38,218 nucleotides of DNA from an uncultured Coriobacteriaceae bacterium (GTDB lineage Bacteria; Actinomycetota; Coriobacteriia; Coriobacteriales; Atopobiaceae). The DNA lies in contig CACXDP010000088.1 of NCBI GenBank assembly GCA_902766445.1, positions 1-38,218 on the forward strand, written 5' to 3'. The notes beneath the pieces were generated by a model, which was given only the letters and a program-made list of their open reading frames with translations, did not search any database and had not been told where the DNA came from. The position numbers and the translations under genes were made by a program. Shown in pieces: positions 1 through 8,647 of the stretch (position 1 is the stretch's first letter; the number at the start of each line of letters is the position of its first letter).

Positions 1-27
1 CACAGGAGCAAAAAGAAGCCCTTTAGA

Positions 28-67
28 TATAATGAGTTATTGATTCAATGGGACTCTGTGATAGACT
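28..67 (+). promoter_or_regulatory. Candidate promoter region of the RiPP precursor gene
   Basis: A perfect TATAAT lies at 28-33, but no good -35 lies 16-18 bases before it. A second candidate pair is TTGATT (40-45) and TAGACT (62-67) with a 16-base spacer. A 7-bp hairpin (86-92 with 99-105) sits just before the Shine-Dalgarno GGAAGGAG (111-118) and could affect translation. The transcription start is not determined; both promoter calls are by eye. Confidence 0.4.
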
Positions 68-124
68 ACCATAAGTTCTAGCGAACGACGGCAGACGGGC
101 CGTCGCTACGGGAAGGAGCAAGAC

Positions 125-343
125 ATGGAAATGCCGAACATGGACCAGATACCCAAAGAGTTCAAGGATCTGGTAACACCTGAGCTGCTGGAGCAGGCGA
201 AGCAGTGCGAGACCCAGGAAGAGGCTATCGCTATGCTTACAAAAAGCGGCGTAGAGATTCCGGACGAAGTATTGGATAATGTGGCCGGCGGCTACTGGGG
301 TGGCGGCGGTGGCGGCTGCAACTGCGACTGGTATCACTTCTAG
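125..343 (+). CDS. RiPP precursor peptide with Nif11-like double-glycine leader
   Basis: This 72-residue peptide looks like a ribosomally made, post-translationally modified peptide precursor. Residues 1-56 form an acidic helical leader ending in LDNVAGG, with the pattern ELLEQAK...EEAIAML...GVEIPDEVLDNVAGG that is typical of Nif11-like leaders. Cleavage after Gly-Gly (55-56), as done by C39-type peptidases, would release a 16-residue core: Tyr57-Trp58, six glycines (59-64), Cys65-Asn-Cys67, then Asp-Trp-Tyr-His-Phe. Cys65 and Cys67 and the aromatic residues are the likely modification sites. The start at 125 has the Shine-Dalgarno GGAAGGAG at 111-118, six bases away. The radical SAM gene next door is convergent, not in the same operon. 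No peptidase or ABC exporter lies in the window; one may lie to the left. The leader call is by pattern; the final product class is unknown. Confidence 0.8.
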   Translation: MEMPNMDQIPKEFKDLVTPELLEQAKQCETQEEAIAMLTKSGVEIPDEVLDNVAGGYWGGGGGGCNCDWYHF

Positions 344-352
344 GATGTTTAG

Positions 353-378
353 CGAGAGGCGCTGTGCAGCGCCTCTCG
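353..378. terminator. Perfect 11-bp hairpin downstream of the precursor gene
   Basis: 353-363 pairs perfectly with 368-378 around a four-base loop. No T-run follows on either strand. It lies 10 bases after the precursor stop and could protect the 3' end of the short mRNA or support termination of the convergent maturase transcript. Confidence 0.5.
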
Positions 379-397
379 TGCGATCATAGAGATGCGC

Positions 398-430
398 GAC
401 CCGCTGGCAATGCTAGCGGGTCTCTTTTTT
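398..430 (+). terminator. Intrinsic terminator of the precursor gene, overlapping the maturase stop codon
   Basis: 398-405 pairs with 415-422 (8 bp, extendable inward with a G-T pair) and is followed by TCTTTTTT at 423-430, a good rho-independent terminator reading rightward. The stop codon of the convergent radical SAM gene (413-415) lies inside the stem, so the two 3' ends overlap. Confidence 0.8.
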
Positions 431-1765
431 CGCATGCGTCTGTGCGTAGAGGGCCCTCACGAACGTCTGAGGGTCGTCTTTGTATGCAACGCACGCCTTG
501 GACTCGAAGAGACGCCGATACGGACAGCCACCTGCGCATAAGGGAAGCCACACGCAGTTCAGGCACTCCGTATCGGACGTCGGCTGTGCCGTGTTGAGGA
601 ATTTCGTGAGATTGTTTGGGGAGGATGCCGTCGCTATGGGGTCGGCGGGGTTCCAGTCGTGTGCGGTGCCAAACGACAATGCGGGCTTATCGACGGCCTC
701 CCAACACTTATGAAGCCTGCCCTGCTCGTCGATACCCACGTCCCACAACGAGTGGGCACCGCAGAAGCTGCCGCGCGCGGGACCGAAGTGCCGCACCCGC
801 TGAAACACCAACAAGTCTCCCATGTCCGCGCCACGCACGAGGTCCACCTGATGGCCACGCCTGCCGGCGGCGGCATTGTCGCGTACGAGCGCCGGGAAGC
901 ACGCGATGTCGTTGCCCGACGCGCGCGCCACACGCTCCATGAATGCCCTGAGGTCGTCGAACTCACAACGGTTATTCTCGTACACGTTGCAGCGCACGTG
1001 GACGTGGAACCCCAGCTTGTTGTCCCGTAAGTTCGCAACGATGCGGTCGAAGGTGGGGCTGCCGTCTGCAAGGCGTCGCGTCGCTTCGTGCGTGGCCCCG
1101 ATACCGTCAACGGTTACCTGGGCGTGTTGGACCTTAGCCTCCGCGAGCATGTCTGCGACTTCCTGCGTGAGCAGGTAGCCGTTGGTGATGATGTTTGCGT
1201 TGTACGTGCCGCCACGCTGCTCAACTAATGAGATGAGACGCGACGAGAGCGACTCGATGACGCGGGGCGCCAGTAGCGGCTCTCCGCCGAACCACGTGAC
1301 GCTGAGCTTTTTGGCGCCAGAGGCGTCCAACATGCGTTGCGCCAAGGACACGACGTCGTCCTGGACCTGCAAGCTCATCTTCTTGCCGTGGTGCGTAGAG
1401 AAGCAATACGGGCAGTCGAAGTTGCAGCCCATGGTGGGGCAGATGGTGAGCGAGACTCCATGCGGAATGGCGCAAGCAGCCCTGCCCAGCGTTTGGAGTG
1501 CGGCTCGCTCGTCAAAGTTCACCACAAGCCCGCGTTGCACGAAGCGCGTGACAAAGGGGTGATCGCATGGCAGGTCATCGGCCTCGGCGAGAAGGGCCCA
1601 CTCCAGCGGCGAGCACATGCCGCAGGTGCCCCTAAAGAGGTTGGCGACGGCGATGCCCTGAGTGCCGGGCACGGTCGTCCAAATGAGGTAGCGCGACACG
1701 TGCCACCCGGCCTCACCAGCGGTTCCGTGGCGTTTCTCGATTTGGTCGCCCTGCCCGCACATCAT
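413..1765 (-). CDS. Radical SAM/SPASM peptide maturase
   Basis: About 450 residues. The radical SAM 4Fe-4S motif is CNFDCPYC (CX3CX2C), followed by a GGEP-type motif (FGGEPLL) that contacts SAM. The C-terminal SPASM domain is complete: an upstream Cys in SFCGAH, a Cys in HKCWE, then CX2CX5CX3C (CLNCVWLPLCAGGC) and a final Cys in KACVAY, enough for two auxiliary clusters. The N-terminal ~100 residues resemble the variable front part of RiPP maturases. In this superfamily such enzymes form thioether, carbon-carbon or carbon-oxygen crosslinks on peptides; the reaction here is unknown. I chose ATG at 1765 (a second ATG at 1762) because AGGGAGGAAGG lies just upstream (1775-1785); a longer reading frame to 1849 has no such site. 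The likely substrate is the adjacent Nif11-leader peptide. Confidence 0.88.
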   Translation of the reverse strand: MMCGQGDQIEKRHGTAGEAGWHVSRYLIWTTVPGTQGIAVANLFRGTCGMCSPLEWALLAEADDLPCDHPFVTRFVQRGLVVNFDERAALQTLGRAACAIPHGVSLTICPTMGCNFDCPYCFSTHHGKKMSLQVQDDVVSLAQRMLDASGAKKLSVTWFGGEPLLAPRVIESLSSRLISLVEQRGGTYNANIITNGYLLTQEVADMLAEAKVQHAQVTVDGIGATHEATRRLADGSPTFDRIVANLRDNKLGFHVHVRCNVYENNRCEFDDLRAFMERVARASGNDIACFPALVRDNAAAGRRGHQVDLVRGADMGDLLVFQRVRHFGPARGSFCGAHSLWDVGIDEQGRLHKCWEAVDKPALSFGTAHDWNPADPIATASSPNNLTKFLNTAQPTSDTECLNCVWLPLCAGGCPYRRLFESKACVAYKDDPQTFVRALYAQTHAKKETR

Positions 1766-1817
1766 CTCGTCGTTCCTTCCTCCCTGTAATCCTGGACGAG
1801 CACTAAAAGACTTTCCA

Positions 1818-1829
1818 TATGCTAGCATA
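1818..1829. promoter_or_regulatory. 12-bp perfect palindrome between two divergent RiPP-locus genes
   Basis: TATGCTAGCATA is its own reverse complement and sits in the 98-base gap between the maturase (start 1765, minus) and the next gene (start 1864, plus). Its halves resemble -10 elements on both strands (TATGCT, TAGCAT), so it could be an operator or paired -10 boxes. No convincing -35 box was found on either side. Confidence 0.4.
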
Positions 1830-1863
1830 GGCCACCGAGTCCCTTGCAACCGAGGAGCACGCC

Positions 1864-2874
1864 ATGCCTATTCCAGACCAGATGGATATGTTTGACCTGC
1901 TGTATACGCTTGCCGCCGCCGACGGGAGAGACGAGGCGTTGCTGGGAGGGCGGCGCGAGCAGCTTAGGTCGCTGTACGAACGCACGCTCATCGGTGGCGC
2001 CCGGCCGCAGCTCTACCTTGAGTTTCCGCTGCTTGGTGGACCCTGCTACGACTTTCTCTCGGTGATTGAGAGGGTGGAGCCGGGCGCCACATTTGCTCCC
2101 GGGGCGGGTTATGGGTATCAGAAGGCCTTCGATTGGTTCAGCACCGTTTGCGAGGACAAGGGCGTGAGCATGGGTTTCGAGCTTGACCTCTCGACGGGAG
2201 AACGGGAGCGTGCGGGCATCTACCTGCAGCAACGCCATCGCTCGGAGCTGGTCGAGCCCTTCTTGGCAAGCGTCAGCGAAGTGTGGCGCTATCCTGCATA
2301 CAAAAACGTCCAAGAAGCGATGCCCGAGGGATGGCCTCCCGCCTATGTTGCCCTTTTTCCCGGTAGGAAGGACTCGCCCACGCGCATAGGTGGATACATG
2401 ACGCATGACGAGCAGCACAGATGTGCCGAGGATCCCACGCACATGGGCGACTGCTTGCATCGCATTGGGTTCGATTCCTTTGACGAGCAGATGCTTGCTC
2501 GCTGCTCGTACCTTATGGGCATGGCGCCTGGTATAGATGTGCAGTTTGACATCATGGAAGACGGGTCCTTGGGCGACACCTTTGGCCTTGCTCTTTCTTT
2601 CAACGAGCTGAGGCCGCGAGCGGCGCGCGAACAGATGGAGAAAGGCGTTGGCCAGCGAATCATGTCCACACTGCAACAGTGGGGCCTTGCCGATGACCGA
2701 TGGCGCCTCCTGAGCAACGTCTCGTTCGCAAGGATGTACCCCTACGTGCGAGAGGACGGGACGACGGGACATCTGGGCTTATGCACACTGCTGAATTATG
2801 TCAAAGTAAAGTTTAGGAACGCACAGATGCTGCCGGCGAAGTTCTACTTGCTCTTGGCGGCTTTCGAGCTGTAG
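1864..2874 (+). CDS. Unknown protein, possible ABBA-fold (PT-barrel) peptide prenyltransferase
   Basis: This 336-residue soluble protein has no signal peptide or membrane segment. I do not recognise it with certainty. It contains recurring helix-then-strand-pair units: around residues 98-120 (GFELDLSTG then AGIYLQ), 222-246 (VQFDIMEDG then FGLALSF) and the C-terminus (GLCTLLNYVKVKF then PAKFYLLLAAF). This alternation, and the ending of the form VKVKF-x-PAKFYLL, recalls ABBA-type aromatic prenyltransferases such as the cyanobactin LynF/TruF/PatF group. That is a fold-level inference from memory without alignment. The context fits: it is divergent from a radical SAM maturase and near a precursor with Trp, Tyr and Cys in its core. 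Start at 1864 follows GAGGAG at 1852-1857. Alternative: an unrelated conserved hypothetical. Confidence 0.6.
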   Translation: MPIPDQMDMFDLLYTLAAADGRDEALLGGRREQLRSLYERTLIGGARPQLYLEFPLLGGPCYDFLSVIERVEPGATFAPGAGYGYQKAFDWFSTVCEDKGVSMGFELDLSTGERERAGIYLQQRHRSELVEPFLASVSEVWRYPAYKNVQEAMPEGWPPAYVALFPGRKDSPTRIGGYMTHDEQHRCAEDPTHMGDCLHRIGFDSFDEQMLARCSYLMGMAPGIDVQFDIMEDGSLGDTFGLALSFNELRPRAAREQMEKGVGQRIMSTLQQWGLADDRWRLLSNVSFARMYPYVREDGTTGHLGLCTLLNYVKVKFRNAQMLPAKFYLLLAAFEL

Positions 2875-2929
2875 GGAGTCACCGGGTCGGCGATGTTGCG
2901 TCCACCCGCCATTATTCGAGCAACAATGC

Positions 2930-2970: not shown

Positions 2971-2999
2971 GTATGGTCATTCATACGGAGGAGCGCCCA

Positions 3000-5435
3000 A
3001 TGTTCAGCAAGCACTTCGTCTTAAACGAGCAGAGCCTGTCGGTCATCGAGCAGCTCGGCGCACATATGCCGGGAGGCTTCTTCATCTACAAAGCCGATGA
3101 TGATGGAGAGCTCCTGTATGCAAACGATGCTGTCTGTCGTATCTTTGGCTGCGAGAACCTCGAGGAGCTCAAAGCGCTCACCGGTTTCACGTTCCGCGGG
3201 ATGGTCTTCGTCGACGATTATGAATGGGTGTCGGACGCCATCACGGACCAGCTCAACGAGACTCGCTATGCCCTTGACCACATCGAATACCGCATTGTTC
3301 GCAAGGACGGCGAGGTTCGATGGATCGATGACTATGGGCACTTCGTGGAGTCCGACGTCTACAAGGGGCTGTACTACGTCTTCATCTCGGACGTCACCGA
3401 CAAGCGCCGGAAGGCAGATAACGACAAGGCTCTTCGTTCAGCCGTAATCGAGGCCTTGACGCGCGTCTACGACTCGGTATGGCTCATCGACGACATACCA
3501 ACTCAGCACTTTCAGCTGTACCGCGTCGACGAGAATCTTTCACACCTTCTGCCTGCCAACCAGGCAATCAAGATTGACCGCTTCTCTGATGCGTTTGCCT
3601 TCTATTCAAATCTGGTGCTCGAAGAGGATCGGCAGGGATTTCTTGAGGCCGTCACGCCGGAGGAGATCGTGCGCAACACTGAGGAACGAATCATATACTC
3701 CGTTCCCTTCCGACGCGTCTTCGAGACGGGCATACGATACTACCGCCTGGAGTTCGCCAAGCTCGACCTCGGAAACGGTAAGACCGGTATCGTCACCGGC
3801 TTCAAAGACGTTGATGACGAGGTGCGCCGCGAGCAGCAGATACAGCAGGCCCTAAGAGACGCCGTTGATGCTGCCAACGCTTCCAGTAAGGCAAAGAGCG
3901 ACTTCCTCTCAAACATGAGCCACGACATCCGTACGCCCATGAACGGCATCATAGGTATGACGACCATCGCCATCAATAGCTTGGACGACCGCGAAAAAGT
4001 GGCCGACTGTCTGCGAAAGATTACGGAGTCCTCGAATCATCTCCTCTCCCTCATCAACGAGTTCCTGGACATGAACAAGATCGAATCGGGAAAGATTGAG
4101 CTCATGGAGGAGGAGTTCGACCTGGCTGAGCTTATTGACGGCATGCTCGCCATGACTCGATCCCAGATTCAGGCGCACAACCATACCTTCCGAATGGATA
4201 TCGTAGGCGTCCAACACGAGCGCGTCATCGGCGACAACCGCAGACTCCAACAGGTCTTCATCAACATCATGGGCAATGCCATCAAGTATACGCCCGATGG
4301 GGGCAAGATCTCGCTGTGTGTCGTGGAGACCCCAACCAAGGCGCACGACTTCGGCCATTACCAGTTCATCTTTGAAGATAACGGCTATGGCATGACCGAG
4401 GAGTTCCAGAAGCACTTGTTTGAACCCTTCGCGCGAGCCAATGACAAGAGGACGGTTGGCATCCAAGGCACGGGTCTCGGCATGACCATCACCCGCAATA
4501 TCGTTCGTATGATGGGAGGCGACATCGCGGTCGAGAGTACCTATGGGGTGGGTTCCAAGTTTACGGTGAGCGTGTACCTCAAACTTCAGGAGACTGAGGA
4601 CATCGACTACGACAGCTTCCTCAACCTCCGAGTGCTCGTCGTTGATGATGATCCCGCCTGCTGCGAGTCGACGTGCGGCGTCCTCAACGACATGGGCATG
4701 AACAGCGAGTGGGTGCTCTCAGGCAAGGCGGCCGTGGATCGCGTGAGGACGCGCTGCGAGCAGGGGAGGGGCTTCTTTGCCATCATCATCGACTGGAAGA
4801 TACCCGACCAAGGTGGGATTGAGACCACTAGGCAGATTCGCCAGATTGTGGGTGATGACGTACCCATCGTCATATTCTCCGCCTACGACTTGAGCGAGAT
4901 CGAGTCGGAGGCCAGGGAGGCTGGCGCAGACTCGTTCATGAGCAAGCCCCTATTCCGCACGAAGCTTGCGACGCTGTTTGACTCGCTTGTCAACAAGCAG
5001 TCCGCGGCTCTTGATTCGGACGCGGCGCTGCACGACCTCGAGGAGCTCAATCTCGATGGTTACCGAATCCTACTGGCCGAAGACCAGGAGATCAACGCGG
5101 AGATAGCGAGGGATTTCTTGGAGATGACCGGACTAGAGGTGGACTGGGCGAAGGACGGCTCCGAGGCAGTCAGGATGTTTGAGGCTTCCCCCGACGGGTA
5201 CTACGCCATGATCTTGTCGGACATCCGCATGCCTGTCATGGACGGATACGAGGCGACGAAGACCATCAGGGCCATGGATCGAGCGTATGCCAAAGACATT
5301 CCCATCGTCGCCATGTCAGCCAACGCCTTTACCGAGGACGTTATGAGTAGCAAGAAAGCCGGCATGAATGACCACATCGCGAAGCCCATCGACATCGAAG
5401 CGTTGGCTCAGGTACTCTCCAAGTACGTGCGGTGA
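3000..5435 (+). CDS. Cytoplasmic PAS hybrid histidine kinase with two receiver domains
   Basis: 811 residues with no membrane segment. Order: PAS domain (about 15-125, beginning GGFFIYKADDDGELLYAN), a divergent second PAS-like region (about 145-275), a short coiled coil, HisKA with SNMSHDIRTP (phosphoacceptor His308), HATPase with N box (GNAIKYTPDGG) and G boxes (DNGYGM, GTGLGM), then receiver 1 (DDD acidic pocket, phosphoacceptor Asp598 in IIIDWKIP) and receiver 2 (phosphoacceptor Asp741 in LSDIRMP). Receiver 1 lacks the usual MP after Asp-x-x. No output or HPt domain is present, so phosphate would pass to a partner. I chose ATG at 3000 because GGAGGAG (2987-2993) lies six bases before it; an in-frame ATG at 2973 has no ribosome binding site. 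The signal sensed is unknown. A second, similar kinase follows. Confidence 0.9.
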   Translation: MFSKHFVLNEQSLSVIEQLGAHMPGGFFIYKADDDGELLYANDAVCRIFGCENLEELKALTGFTFRGMVFVDDYEWVSDAITDQLNETRYALDHIEYRIVRKDGEVRWIDDYGHFVESDVYKGLYYVFISDVTDKRRKADNDKALRSAVIEALTRVYDSVWLIDDIPTQHFQLYRVDENLSHLLPANQAIKIDRFSDAFAFYSNLVLEEDRQGFLEAVTPEEIVRNTEERIIYSVPFRRVFETGIRYYRLEFAKLDLGNGKTGIVTGFKDVDDEVRREQQIQQALRDAVDAANASSKAKSDFLSNMSHDIRTPMNGIIGMTTIAINSLDDREKVADCLRKITESSNHLLSLINEFLDMNKIESGKIELMEEEFDLAELIDGMLAMTRSQIQAHNHTFRMDIVGVQHERVIGDNRRLQQVFINIMGNAIKYTPDGGKISLCVVETPTKAHDFGHYQFIFEDNGYGMTEEFQKHLFEPFARANDKRTVGIQGTGLGMTITRNIVRMMGGDIAVESTYGVGSKFTVSVYLKLQETEDIDYDSFLNLRVLVVDDDPACCESTCGVLNDMGMNSEWVLSGKAAVDRVRTRCEQGRGFFAIIIDWKIPDQGGIETTRQIRQIVGDDVPIVIFSAYDLSEIESEAREAGADSFMSKPLFRTKLATLFDSLVNKQSAALDSDAALHDLEELNLDGYRILLAEDQEINAEIARDFLEMTGLEVDWAKDGSEAVRMFEASPDGYYAMILSDIRMPVMDGYEATKTIRAMDRAYAKDIPIVAMSANAFTEDVMSSKKAGMNDHIAKPIDIEALAQVLSKYVR

Positions 5436-5554
5436 GCGCTGGGCGAGCCGCACCATGACAGCGAAGCAACGATAGCCAGACATTAGGAATGCAAAACCGT
5501 CCCAGCAAGGGCGTATACTTGCCGGGATTAGCGATAGCGTGAAGGGGAGGGCTC

Positions 5555-8500
5555 ATGAGAGGCAAAAGCGCGGGCCGAAGCAGCACGACGATTGTGGCAA
5601 TCGTGGGTGGCATCATCGTAGTTGCCCTATTCCTACTGGGAACCATATGGTCGGGCCGACGGGCGGCGGACGACACCAACGAAGCCGTTCATTCCGTGAG
5701 CCTGCTCTACCTTGACGAGCTCGCCGGACGACGCGAGCAGGTCGTTGCCTCTAACCTCCAAAACAAGATTGACGTCATACAGGTCGCCATCGAGCTCATG
5801 ACGAGTGAGGACTTAAGCGACCTCAAGCACCTGCAAGCTTATCAGATCCGCATGAAACGACTCTACAATCTCGATCGATTCGCCTTCGTCGATGAGAACG
5901 GCCTCATCTATACGGCCCTCGGTCCGCAGACGAACATCGATGACTATCAGTTCGATCATGTCACGCTTACTGAGCCTGAAATCTCGATTCTCAATCTACG
6001 GTCTACGGAAAAGAAGGTCATCATCGCAGTTCCCGTGAGCATCGCCTTCGAGGGGCATACGCTGAACGTCTGCTTCATGGAAATCGACATGAAGGAAATG
6101 CTCTCGGGTGTCTCGATGGAGTCAAGCGAAGGGGATGCCACCTTCTGCAACATCTATACCACTGATGGCATCGCGTTGAGCGACACGGTGCTCGGCGGTC
6201 TCGCTGACGAGGACAACCTCATCGAGGCCATGGAGCATGCCCAGTTCGAGGGTGACTACAGCTATGATCGTTTTATCCACGAGTTTAGTTCGCTGAAACG
6301 CGGCGTCGTCACCTTTACCTATGACGGCATTCAGGAGACGCTAAGCTATGTGCCAATAGAGGGCACAGACTGGCTGCTTACCTACCTCATTCGCGAAAGC
6401 GTCATCAGCGAGCAGATAGGCTCTGTGACAAATGGCATCATTGCGCGCAATCTCGTTCAGACCGCGCTTACGGTCGCGGCAATCGTCGTGCTATTTGCCT
6501 TCATCGTCTTGCAGACCCGTCAAAGCGCGCGGCTTCTCCTCGAGAAGGAGACTGCCGAGGCAGAGAACCGCGCACGCAACCAGGAGCTTGAGCAGCGCCT
6601 GCTTCTTCAGGAACAGCTGCTCGAGGAACGACGAAGCTCCGAGGAGCAGGACAAGCTCATCTCAGCCCTATCCTCGGACTACTGGAGTGTCTACTACATA
6701 GACCTTGACGCCGATGATGGCGTGTGTTACCAATCGCATGCCGACCTCGAGCATGGTTTGGCAGAGGGCGAGCACTTCTCCTACCATGACGCGGTAACCG
6801 CATATGCGAATGCCTACGTTTGTGAGGCGTATCGTAAAGACTTCTTGGACTTCGTGGATCCCGAGTCCGTGCGAAAAGGCCTGAGCGACAGTCGTGTCAT
6901 CTCCTATCGTTACATGGTCTCCCGACACGGACGTGAGACCTACGAAATGGCTCGCATCGCCGGCGTGCGACACCCCGAGGATCGTGATGACCATCTCGTG
7001 CATAGCGTCGGCGCTTGTTTCACGGATGTTGACGCCGAGACCCGTGCCCAGCTAGCGCAGAACCACGCGCTTGCCGATGCGCTCGAGGCTGCCGAGCGGG
7101 CTAACCAGGCAAAGACCGCATTCCTGTCGAACATGAGCCACGAGATTCGTACCCCGATGAACGCCATCATCGGCCTCGACAACATCGCTCTCAACGACCC
7201 CGAAACGCCCGAGGTTACGCGGGGCTATCTCGAAAAGATTGGCGATTCGGCCGAGCACCTGCTGTCCCTGATCAACGACATCCTCGACATGAGCCGCATT
7301 GAGTCGGGTCGCATGATGCTCAAGAACGAGGAGTTCTCGTTCTCGCGCCTGCTTGAGTCCATCAATACGATGTTCAGCGGCCAGTGTCAGGACAAGGGCC
7401 TCAGCTATCAGTGCCATATAAACGGCGAGGTGGACGGGGCATACATCGGCGACGAGATGAAGCTTCGCCAGGTTCTCATAAACATCCTGGGCAACGCAGT
7501 GAAGTTCACCCCCGAGGGCGGTGAGGTAGAACTTGAGCTGGAACGCACGGCGCGCTTTGACGGAAAGTCCACGCTGCGATTCGCGATTCGCGACACAGGC
7601 ATCGGCATGAGCACGGACTTCCTGCCGCACATCTTTGACACCTTTGCTCAAGAGGACTCGTCGAGCACGAACAAATACGGTAGCTCGGGTCTTGGACTCG
7701 CCATCACAAAGAACATCGTGGAGCTGATGAACGGCAACATCCACGTGACGAGCGTCAAGGGCGAAGGAACGACCTTCATCGTGACTGTTACACTGACGGA
7801 TTCACAGAAGGGGAGTCTGCTCGATGACGTCGAGATTGATCCTCATCAGATGAGCGTTCTTGTCGTGGACGACGATCCTGTTGCCTGCGAACATGCCAGA
7901 CTTGTGCTGCAGAGCGCGGGCATCGAGTCGGAGATTGCGGAGAGTGGTTACCTCGCCGTCGAGAAGGTGCGGCTGCGTCACGCACGTCGAGAGCCGTACA
8001 ACCTGATTCTCGTGGACTGGCAGATGCCGGATATGGACGGCGTGGAGACCACACGTCAGATTCGTGCCATCGTGGGCGACGAGTCGGCCATCATCATCCT
8101 CACGGCATATAAGTGGGACGATGTGCTGGAGGAGGCTATGCATGCGGGCGTGGACTGCTTCATTCCCAAGCCGCTCTTTGCCGCCACGGTGCTTGAGGAG
8201 TTCAGGTCGGCATTAATTCGTAAGGGCACGTTGGACATGGCGCAGGCTCACAAGGTAGAGCTCGAGGGCCGGCATGTCCTGCTTGCCGAGGACGTCGAGG
8301 TAAACGCGGAAATCATGGAGATGGTCCTCGAGATGCGTGGCATCAAGGCCGACATTGCCGAAAACGGACGCATAGCCGTCGAGAAGTTCGCCGAGGCTTC
8401 CGAAGGTCACTATGATGCGATACTCATGGACATGCGCATGCCAGAGATGGACGGTCTCGAGGCCGCGCGAACCATTCGCGCGATGGATCGAGCCGATGCA

Positions 8501-8647
8501 AAAACGATACCCATCATCGCGCTCACCGCAAATGCCTTCGACGAAGACGTGCAGAGAAGTCTGCAAGCTGGTCTCGATGCGCATCTTAGCAAGCCCGTGC
8601 AACCCGATATCCTCTTTGAGACCTTGGAGAGTCTGATAATGGACTGA
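5555..8647 (+). CDS. Membrane-bound hybrid histidine kinase with Cache-like sensor and two receivers
   Basis: 1030 residues. A membrane segment at about 12-32 and another at about 301-322 flank a ~265-residue extracytoplasmic region with strand patterns like a double-Cache sensor (for example FVDENGLIYTALG and VSIAFEGHTL). After a coiled coil (about 325-365) comes a PAS-like region, then HisKA with SNMSHEIRTP (His529), HATPase (GNAVKFTPEGG, DTGIGM, GSSGLGL), receiver 1 (Asp821 in LVDWQMPDMDG) and receiver 2 (Asp959 in MDMRMPEMDG). The two kinases share architecture from HisKA onward and probably arose by duplication. The 119-base gap before it holds a TATACT (-10-like, 5514-5519) and the ribosome site GAAGGGGAGG just before the ATG, so it may have its own promoter. 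No HPt or DNA-binding output domain is encoded nearby. Confidence 0.9.
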   Translation: MRGKSAGRSSTTIVAIVGGIIVVALFLLGTIWSGRRAADDTNEAVHSVSLLYLDELAGRREQVVASNLQNKIDVIQVAIELMTSEDLSDLKHLQAYQIRMKRLYNLDRFAFVDENGLIYTALGPQTNIDDYQFDHVTLTEPEISILNLRSTEKKVIIAVPVSIAFEGHTLNVCFMEIDMKEMLSGVSMESSEGDATFCNIYTTDGIALSDTVLGGLADEDNLIEAMEHAQFEGDYSYDRFIHEFSSLKRGVVTFTYDGIQETLSYVPIEGTDWLLTYLIRESVISEQIGSVTNGIIARNLVQTALTVAAIVVLFAFIVLQTRQSARLLLEKETAEAENRARNQELEQRLLLQEQLLEERRSSEEQDKLISALSSDYWSVYYIDLDADDGVCYQSHADLEHGLAEGEHFSYHDAVTAYANAYVCEAYRKDFLDFVDPESVRKGLSDSRVISYRYMVSRHGRETYEMARIAGVRHPEDRDDHLVHSVGACFTDVDAETRAQLAQNHALADALEAAERANQAKTAFLSNMSHEIRTPMNAIIGLDNIALNDPETPEVTRGYLEKIGDSAEHLLSLINDILDMSRIESGRMMLKNEEFSFSRLLESINTMFSGQCQDKGLSYQCHINGEVDGAYIGDEMKLRQVLINILGNAVKFTPEGGEVELELERTARFDGKSTLRFAIRDTGIGMSTDFLPHIFDTFAQEDSSSTNKYGSSGLGLAITKNIVELMNGNIHVTSVKGEGTTFIVTVTLTDSQKGSLLDDVEIDPHQMSVLVVDDDPVACEHARLVLQSAGIESEIAESGYLAVEKVRLRHARREPYNLILVDWQMPDMDGVETTRQIRAIVGDESAIIILTAYKWDDVLEEAMHAGVDCFIPKPLFAATVLEEFRSALIRKGTLDMAQAHKVELEGRHVLLAEDVEVNAEIMEMVLEMRGIKADIAENGRIAVEKFAEASEGHYDAILMDMRMPEMDGLEAARTIRAMDRADAKTIPIIALTANAFDEDVQRSLQAGLDAHLSKPVQPDILFETLESLIMD

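Follow-up and report, generated by a model that had tools for sequence, protein, structure and literature searches.

Lipidation of peptides by alpha-beta-beta-alpha (ABBA) enzymes has so far been associated chiefly with the cyanobactins of cyanobacteria and, more recently, with lanthipeptides. The cyanobactin F-family enzymes (PatF, PagF, KgpF and LimF) act on the cores of ribosomally synthesized and post-translationally modified peptides (RiPPs) and use leaderless macrocycles (PMC12715784). In the cyanobacterium Moorena, the MppE/MppM/MppC system produces a prenylated lanthipeptide, for which leader-dependent geranylation of tryptophan has been shown (PMC12715784). A three-gene locus of Paenibacillus, PalQ/PalX, combines an NHLP-type precursor with a tryptophan prenyltransferase; PalQ is related to isoprene synthases rather than to ABBA enzymes, and no radical S-adenosylmethionine (SAM) enzyme is listed in its cluster (PMC10853753). 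Here, we describe a probable three-gene RiPP locus at the left end of contig CACXDP010000088.1, from an uncultured Coriobacteriaceae bacterium, which encodes a 72-residue precursor, a radical SAM/SPASM enzyme and a 336-residue protein of predicted ABBA fold. The window analyzed is the complete contig (38,218 bases, from a 4.07-Mb draft genome), and position 1 is the first base of the contig. We think it likely that this cassette makes a radically crosslinked and prenylated RiPP.

Like PalQ/PalX, the locus consists of three genes, and like the Mpp system, it pairs a precursor bearing a Nif11-like leader with an ABBA enzyme; the Mpp macrocycle, however, is formed by a LanM lanthionine synthetase, whereas a radical SAM enzyme is encoded here (PMC12715784). 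MppC was placed in the cyanobactin prenyltransferase family by its authors, while the protein described here fits no family model (PMC12715784). Its model shares the barrel fold of the F-family (PatF, Z 13.9), but no NCBIfam or Pfam model matches its sequence. A search of the open-licence literature returned no account of a RiPP pathway in which a radical SAM/SPASM enzyme and an ABBA prenyltransferase occur together, and nothing for Nif11 combined with radical SAM and Olsenella, or for TIGR04463. The first-pass annotation, made from the sequence alone, knew of no described class with this exact core. The individual parts all belong to known kinds; what is new, as far as tested, is their combination, the core sequence and the branch of prenyltransferases.

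The cassette as a conserved unit

Comparison of four loci by blastn delimits a 2.8-kb block that is shared, at 83-90% nucleotide identity, with three other species-level genomes of the same genus. Outside this block, the loci have nothing alike except a single 47-bp match far to the right in the window. Gene order is kept in all three other genomes, with the precursor and maturase genes convergent and the prenyltransferase gene divergent from the maturase gene. Ratios of nonsynonymous to synonymous substitution (dN/dS) lie between 0.10 and 0.22 for every cassette gene and every pair of the four genomes, indicating purifying selection. Close orthologues of the precursor occur in only 4 of 16 genomes of the genus, the same four that carry the cassette, and these also hold the maturase at no less than 83% and the prenyltransferase at no less than 85% identity. 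Because the block is conserved between unlike flanks, the three genes are one unit. Conservation in four assemblies, together with the dN/dS values, rules out a chance open reading frame (ORF), a pseudogene or a misassembly.

The two hybrid histidine kinase-like genes to the right were considered as cassette members and rejected, since the shared block stops at 2895. A phage search found no match. Adjoining one of the cassettes, a Nif11-like leader frame continues directly into the beginning of an ATPase (FGRRRVGKTYLV; L040:11685-11987, in our numbering of loci). Feature coordinates are collected in Table 1.

Table 1. Features of the cassette and of related loci; positions refer to the window unless a locus label is given.
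Feature	Position	Strand	Basis or remark
Whole cassette	84..2895	.	blastn between loci: block common to three other genomes, flanks differ
Ribosome-binding site AAGGAG of precursor	113..118	+	Read from sequence, 6 nt before ATG
RiPP precursor, 72 aa, ATG start	125..343	+	Orthologues; purifying selection
Leader, 56 aa, Gly-Gly end, Nif11-like	125..292	+	Alignment; TIGR03798 matches in relatives
Predicted core YWGGGGGGCNCDWYHF, 16 aa	293..340	+	Comparison of four orthologues
Rho-independent terminator-like hairpin, 11-bp stem then T-run	398..422	+	Position 3' of precursor fits
Radical SAM/SPASM peptide maturase, 450 aa	413..1765	-	Models, homologue alignment, structure; frame open to 1849
Predicted ABBA-fold (PT-barrel) prenyltransferase, 336 aa, new sequence family	1864..2874	+	AlphaFold model, fold search, homologues
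Two large hybrid histidine kinase-like genes	2973-8647		Directly right of cassette; not in orthologous cassettes
Zinc-ribbon-like leader ORFs	L133:659-934, L133:344-1042, L140:4181-4447, L140:6118-6366, L139:8998-9411, L146:5691-5939		

A predicted ABBA-fold protein and its gene neighbors

Searches with the 336-residue protein, singly or as an alignment, gave no hit in Pfam, NCBIfam or the PDB sequences. Its AlphaFold model, built on a 42-sequence alignment, has a predicted local distance difference test score (pLDDT) of 94.7 and a predicted template modeling score of 0.90, and alternates strand pairs with helices, in keeping with a barrel of ten antiparallel strands inside a ring of helices. 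Foldseek gives 30 matches at E<=0.001, every one of them an aromatic prenyltransferase. VIA-align superposes the model on CymD with a Z of 15.8 over 282 of 336 residues, and further matches include MpnD, SCO DMATS, PriB, NphB/Orf2 and AmbP1. The closest fold is that of the DMATS-type bacterial indole prenyltransferases (CymD, PriB and SCO DMATS; Z 15-16 over ~280 residues), from which the protein differs in its low identity (~10-13%) and apparently in several diphosphate-site residues; known DMATS members use free tryptophan or small substrates. The earlier proposal that the third gene is ABBA-like is thus upheld at the level of the predicted fold, and the family is linked to RiPP precursors in other loci as well.

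This linkage was followed across genomes. The family occurs in all genus members searched, in 25 of 100 near relatives and in 16 of 298 Coriobacteriia genomes, and when 84,980 species genomes were scanned with an alignment of closer homologues, 31 loci emerged, 29 of them with a readable gene. A Nif11-type leader ORF lies within 1.5 kb of the prenyltransferase in 19 of these 29 loci, and such ORFs number 24 in 133 kb near prenyltransferases versus 16 in 290 kb far from them. A homologue of the maturase described here is present in 8 of the 29. In many loci, two prenyltransferase paralogues stand next to each other in the order A, B. L112 shows this most clearly, with a precursor of core DSWWCPTATSCPNYEVMR ahead of A and one of core SWYNCMNETW behind B. 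The window's own genome holds a further member (31% identity) on contig C179 (L134:2593-6721), in an apparent operon of four genes on one strand: a Nif11-type precursor with a long core (TIGR03798, 29.5 bits), the prenyltransferase homologue, a radical SAM gene that hits SPASM-type models, and a C39 peptidase that matches the NHLM exporter model and whose frame is cut short. A more distant homologue, annotated as a hypothetical protein, lies on plasmid pNP243 of Butyrivibrio fibrisolvens (24% identity, hhalign Prob 99.6; L204:9947-14771), with PqqD-family, lasso B2, S24/S26 peptidase and ABC transporter genes nearby and a small ORF with a Cys/Trp/Tyr-rich tail adjoining the PqqD-family and peptidase genes.

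These neighborhoods bear on an alternative in which the precursor and the SPASM enzyme form a RiPP pathway and the ABBA protein, merely a stable neighbor, prenylates a small indole or an unrelated peptide. The prenyltransferase and maturase families each occur elsewhere without the other, and the best fold matches act on free tryptophan or small indoles, both of which this alternative would explain. It nevertheless appears unlikely to us: the three genes stay together between unrelated flanks, related prenyltransferases directly adjoin leader-peptide ORFs in most loci and lie within RiPP clusters of two phyla, and MppC shows that ABBA enzymes act on Nif11-type precursors (PMC12715784).

Tandem prenyltransferase pairs flanked by one or two precursors were seen at L112:9615-12292 and also at L095, L100, L102, L106, L109 and L114. 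The two cores found at L112 are very conserved across the tandem-pair loci, and the maturase described here is not nearby.

In DMATS enzymes, a catalytic glutamate sits on strand 1, arginines on strands 2 and 6, and a Lys-x-Tyr motif on strand 10. Ten-strand topology can be mapped onto the new family, in which E53, D63, D108, R168, R174, Q227, D229, K314, K326 and Y328 are invariant in 42 of 42 members: as a matter of topology only, E53 would fall on strand 1, D63 on strand 2, R174 on strand 6 and K326-x-Y328 on strand 10. At some of the positions that bind diphosphate in DMATS enzymes, the same reading suggests glycine in place of lysine on strand 6 and aspartate in place of arginine on strand 2. 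Such differences would fit an ABBA-fold protein that is catalytically dead and serves the maturase as a leader-binding partner or scaffold, which we nonetheless judge improbable: charged and tyrosine residues on or near the barrel strands are invariant across divergent members, fitting an active site, and tandem pairs of paralogues are frequent in the family.

The precursor peptide and its maturase

The precursor ends in ...DNVAGG, followed by the predicted core Tyr-Trp-Gly6-Cys-Asn-Cys-Asp-Trp-Tyr-His-Phe; the orthologues (76-94% identity) carry YWGGGCNCDWYHF, YWGGGGGCSCDWYRF and GWWCGGGGCNCDWYHF in its place. The double-glycine peptide and core named in the first-pass annotation are confirmed, and precursor homologues beside radical SAM genes were found in three other genomes. 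CxCDWYxF and the early tryptophan are kept in all four cores. The glycine run varies in length and therefore suits a linker role. Among relatives with the same leader, 20 of 20 match TIGR03798 at E<=0.1 (best E 9e-8), and the Gly-Gly leader end is invariant in 20 aligned members, after which the cores diverge. Matches resembling the terminator-like hairpin 3' of the precursor are no more frequent than shuffled sequence would give. That the ORF is instead a small protein with a Nif11-like helical domain, as zinc-ribbon-like ends of several leader homologues (some in this genome) and its own sub-threshold Nif11 score might suggest, is very improbable in view of its short Gly/Cys/aromatic tail after Gly-Gly, which is conserved except near the glycine run, and of the SPASM enzyme encoded opposite the ORF in each of the four genomes.

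In many Nif11-type leader ORFs of the same genome and its relatives, Gly-Gly is followed by a zinc-ribbon-like CxxC...CxxC module in place of a short core (Table 1).

The maturase, as predicted, is a complete radical SAM/SPASM enzyme, encoded on the minus strand. It scores 61 bits against PF04055 (cut-off 29.5) and 45.4 against the SPASM model TIGR04085 (cut-off 27), and its CxxxCxxC motif and seven SPASM cysteines (C335, C354, C401, C404, C410, C414 and C425) do not vary among eight homologues (45-88% identity). The reading frame is open over 413-1849, and comparison with orthologues points to the ATG 1763-1765 as its start codon. The suggestion that the enzyme groups with peptide maturases is borne out, as its best named NCBIfam models are all of this kind (TIGR04463, Clo7bot, FlmE/OhkG, geopeptide, CefB and PapB), and its best structural matches are CteB (Z 19.2), anSME, ChlB, TigE and SkfB. 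No named model reaches its equivalog cut-off: the top score, 191 bits for TIGR04463, compares with a cut-off of 525. The enzyme thus resembles the TIGR04463-type SPASM maturases of Cys-rich peptides and the thioether-forming CteB, but it lies far under the equivalog cut-off of the former and is only 17% identical to the latter. To our knowledge, a core with a glycine run and CxCDWYxF matches no known partner of a named maturase. Residues 27-97 are predicted to form three strands and then three helices (pLDDT ~60-85, lower in the third helix) and look like a leader-binding RiPP recognition element, a reading of secondary structure in a region that the fold search hardly covered.

At four loci in three genomes (L048, L049, L054 and L055), an identical precursor core, MMWGDVCVGVACKVCRGYKGCKCY, stands beside maturase paralogues at 58-59% identity.

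Proposed pathway and its occurrence

The observed basis for a crosslinked, prenylated product consists of the three genes, conserved together and under purifying selection, of their predicted folds, and of prenyltransferase relatives that accompany RiPP precursors at other loci, including in another phylum. From these we infer both reactions, their acceptor residues, the prenyl donor, the sequence of events and export by a transporter encoded outside the cassette. The cassette would be a self-contained tailoring unit for a ribosomal peptide in an Atopobiaceae bacterium of the herbivore (ruminant) gut. The Nif11-like leader would recruit both the maturase and the prenyltransferase. Within the Cys/aromatic core, the SPASM enzyme would form a radical crosslink, most plausibly a thioether from one of the two cysteines of CxCDWYxF, and the ABBA-fold enzyme would move a C5 or C10 prenyl group onto an aromatic side chain, most likely that of a tryptophan. 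MppC, an ABBA enzyme that modifies tryptophan in a peptide with a Nif11-type leader, renders this mechanism plausible, not proven. Cleavage after Gly-Gly and export would then fall to a C39-type exporter from another part of the genome; no exporter gene was found in the cassette in any of the four loci, and five C39-peptidase genes or fragments are present elsewhere in the window's own genome.

Several findings weigh against this pathway. The precursor scores 15.0 bits against PF07862 (cut-off 23.8) and 13.9 against TIGR03798 (cut-off 32.3), both below the curated thresholds. The Nif11-type leader of the first-pass annotation is therefore sustained only in part: the label is consistent for the relatives and draws on family-wide similarity, not on this peptide's own score. 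The early tryptophan also occurs in Nif11-type ORFs that adjoin no prenyltransferase, so tryptophan is only the likeliest guess for the acceptor. The maturase model is of moderate quality (pLDDT 69.8), its SPASM region being poorly predicted. The maturase is absent from 21 of the 29 prenyltransferase loci, and many of its relatives stand without a prenyltransferase, so the pair is not always together. Curated Pfam and NCBIfam prenyltransferase models (Trp_DMAT, PTase_Orf2 and others) match 0 of 24 family members, and profile comparison with the Streptomyces DMATS and Orf2 families is uninformative, giving a weak, local, out-of-register hit to DMATS (Prob 60). Such comparison cannot decide homology here, because known ABBA families fail to find one another (Streptomyces DMATS versus Orf2 families, Prob 0.4).

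On balance, we lean towards a RiPP class of a new type, whose single core would bear both a SPASM crosslink and a prenyl group from an unrecognized, leader-linked ABBA branch; this branch would be common among gut Coriobacteriia, where many of its enzymes come in tandem pairs bordered by precursors, and would extend to a Bacillota plasmid. If so, ABBA enzymes invisible to sequence models decorate leader-bearing peptides of gut bacteria and work together with radical SAM chemistry. The cassette offers a defined test system of two enzymes and one peptide, and might be used to make peptides that are both lipidated and crosslinked. Further members, now annotated as hypothetical proteins, could be sought by their fold and by the residues that do not vary.

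Related records belong to Atopobiaceae and Coriobacteriia, and several were assembled from sheep, goat and deer gut. A genome labeled Erysipelotrichaceae (RUG087) contains the maturase, both prenyltransferase types and two precursors (L113:3628-7956), a set that reflects either horizontal transfer or a mislabeled bin.

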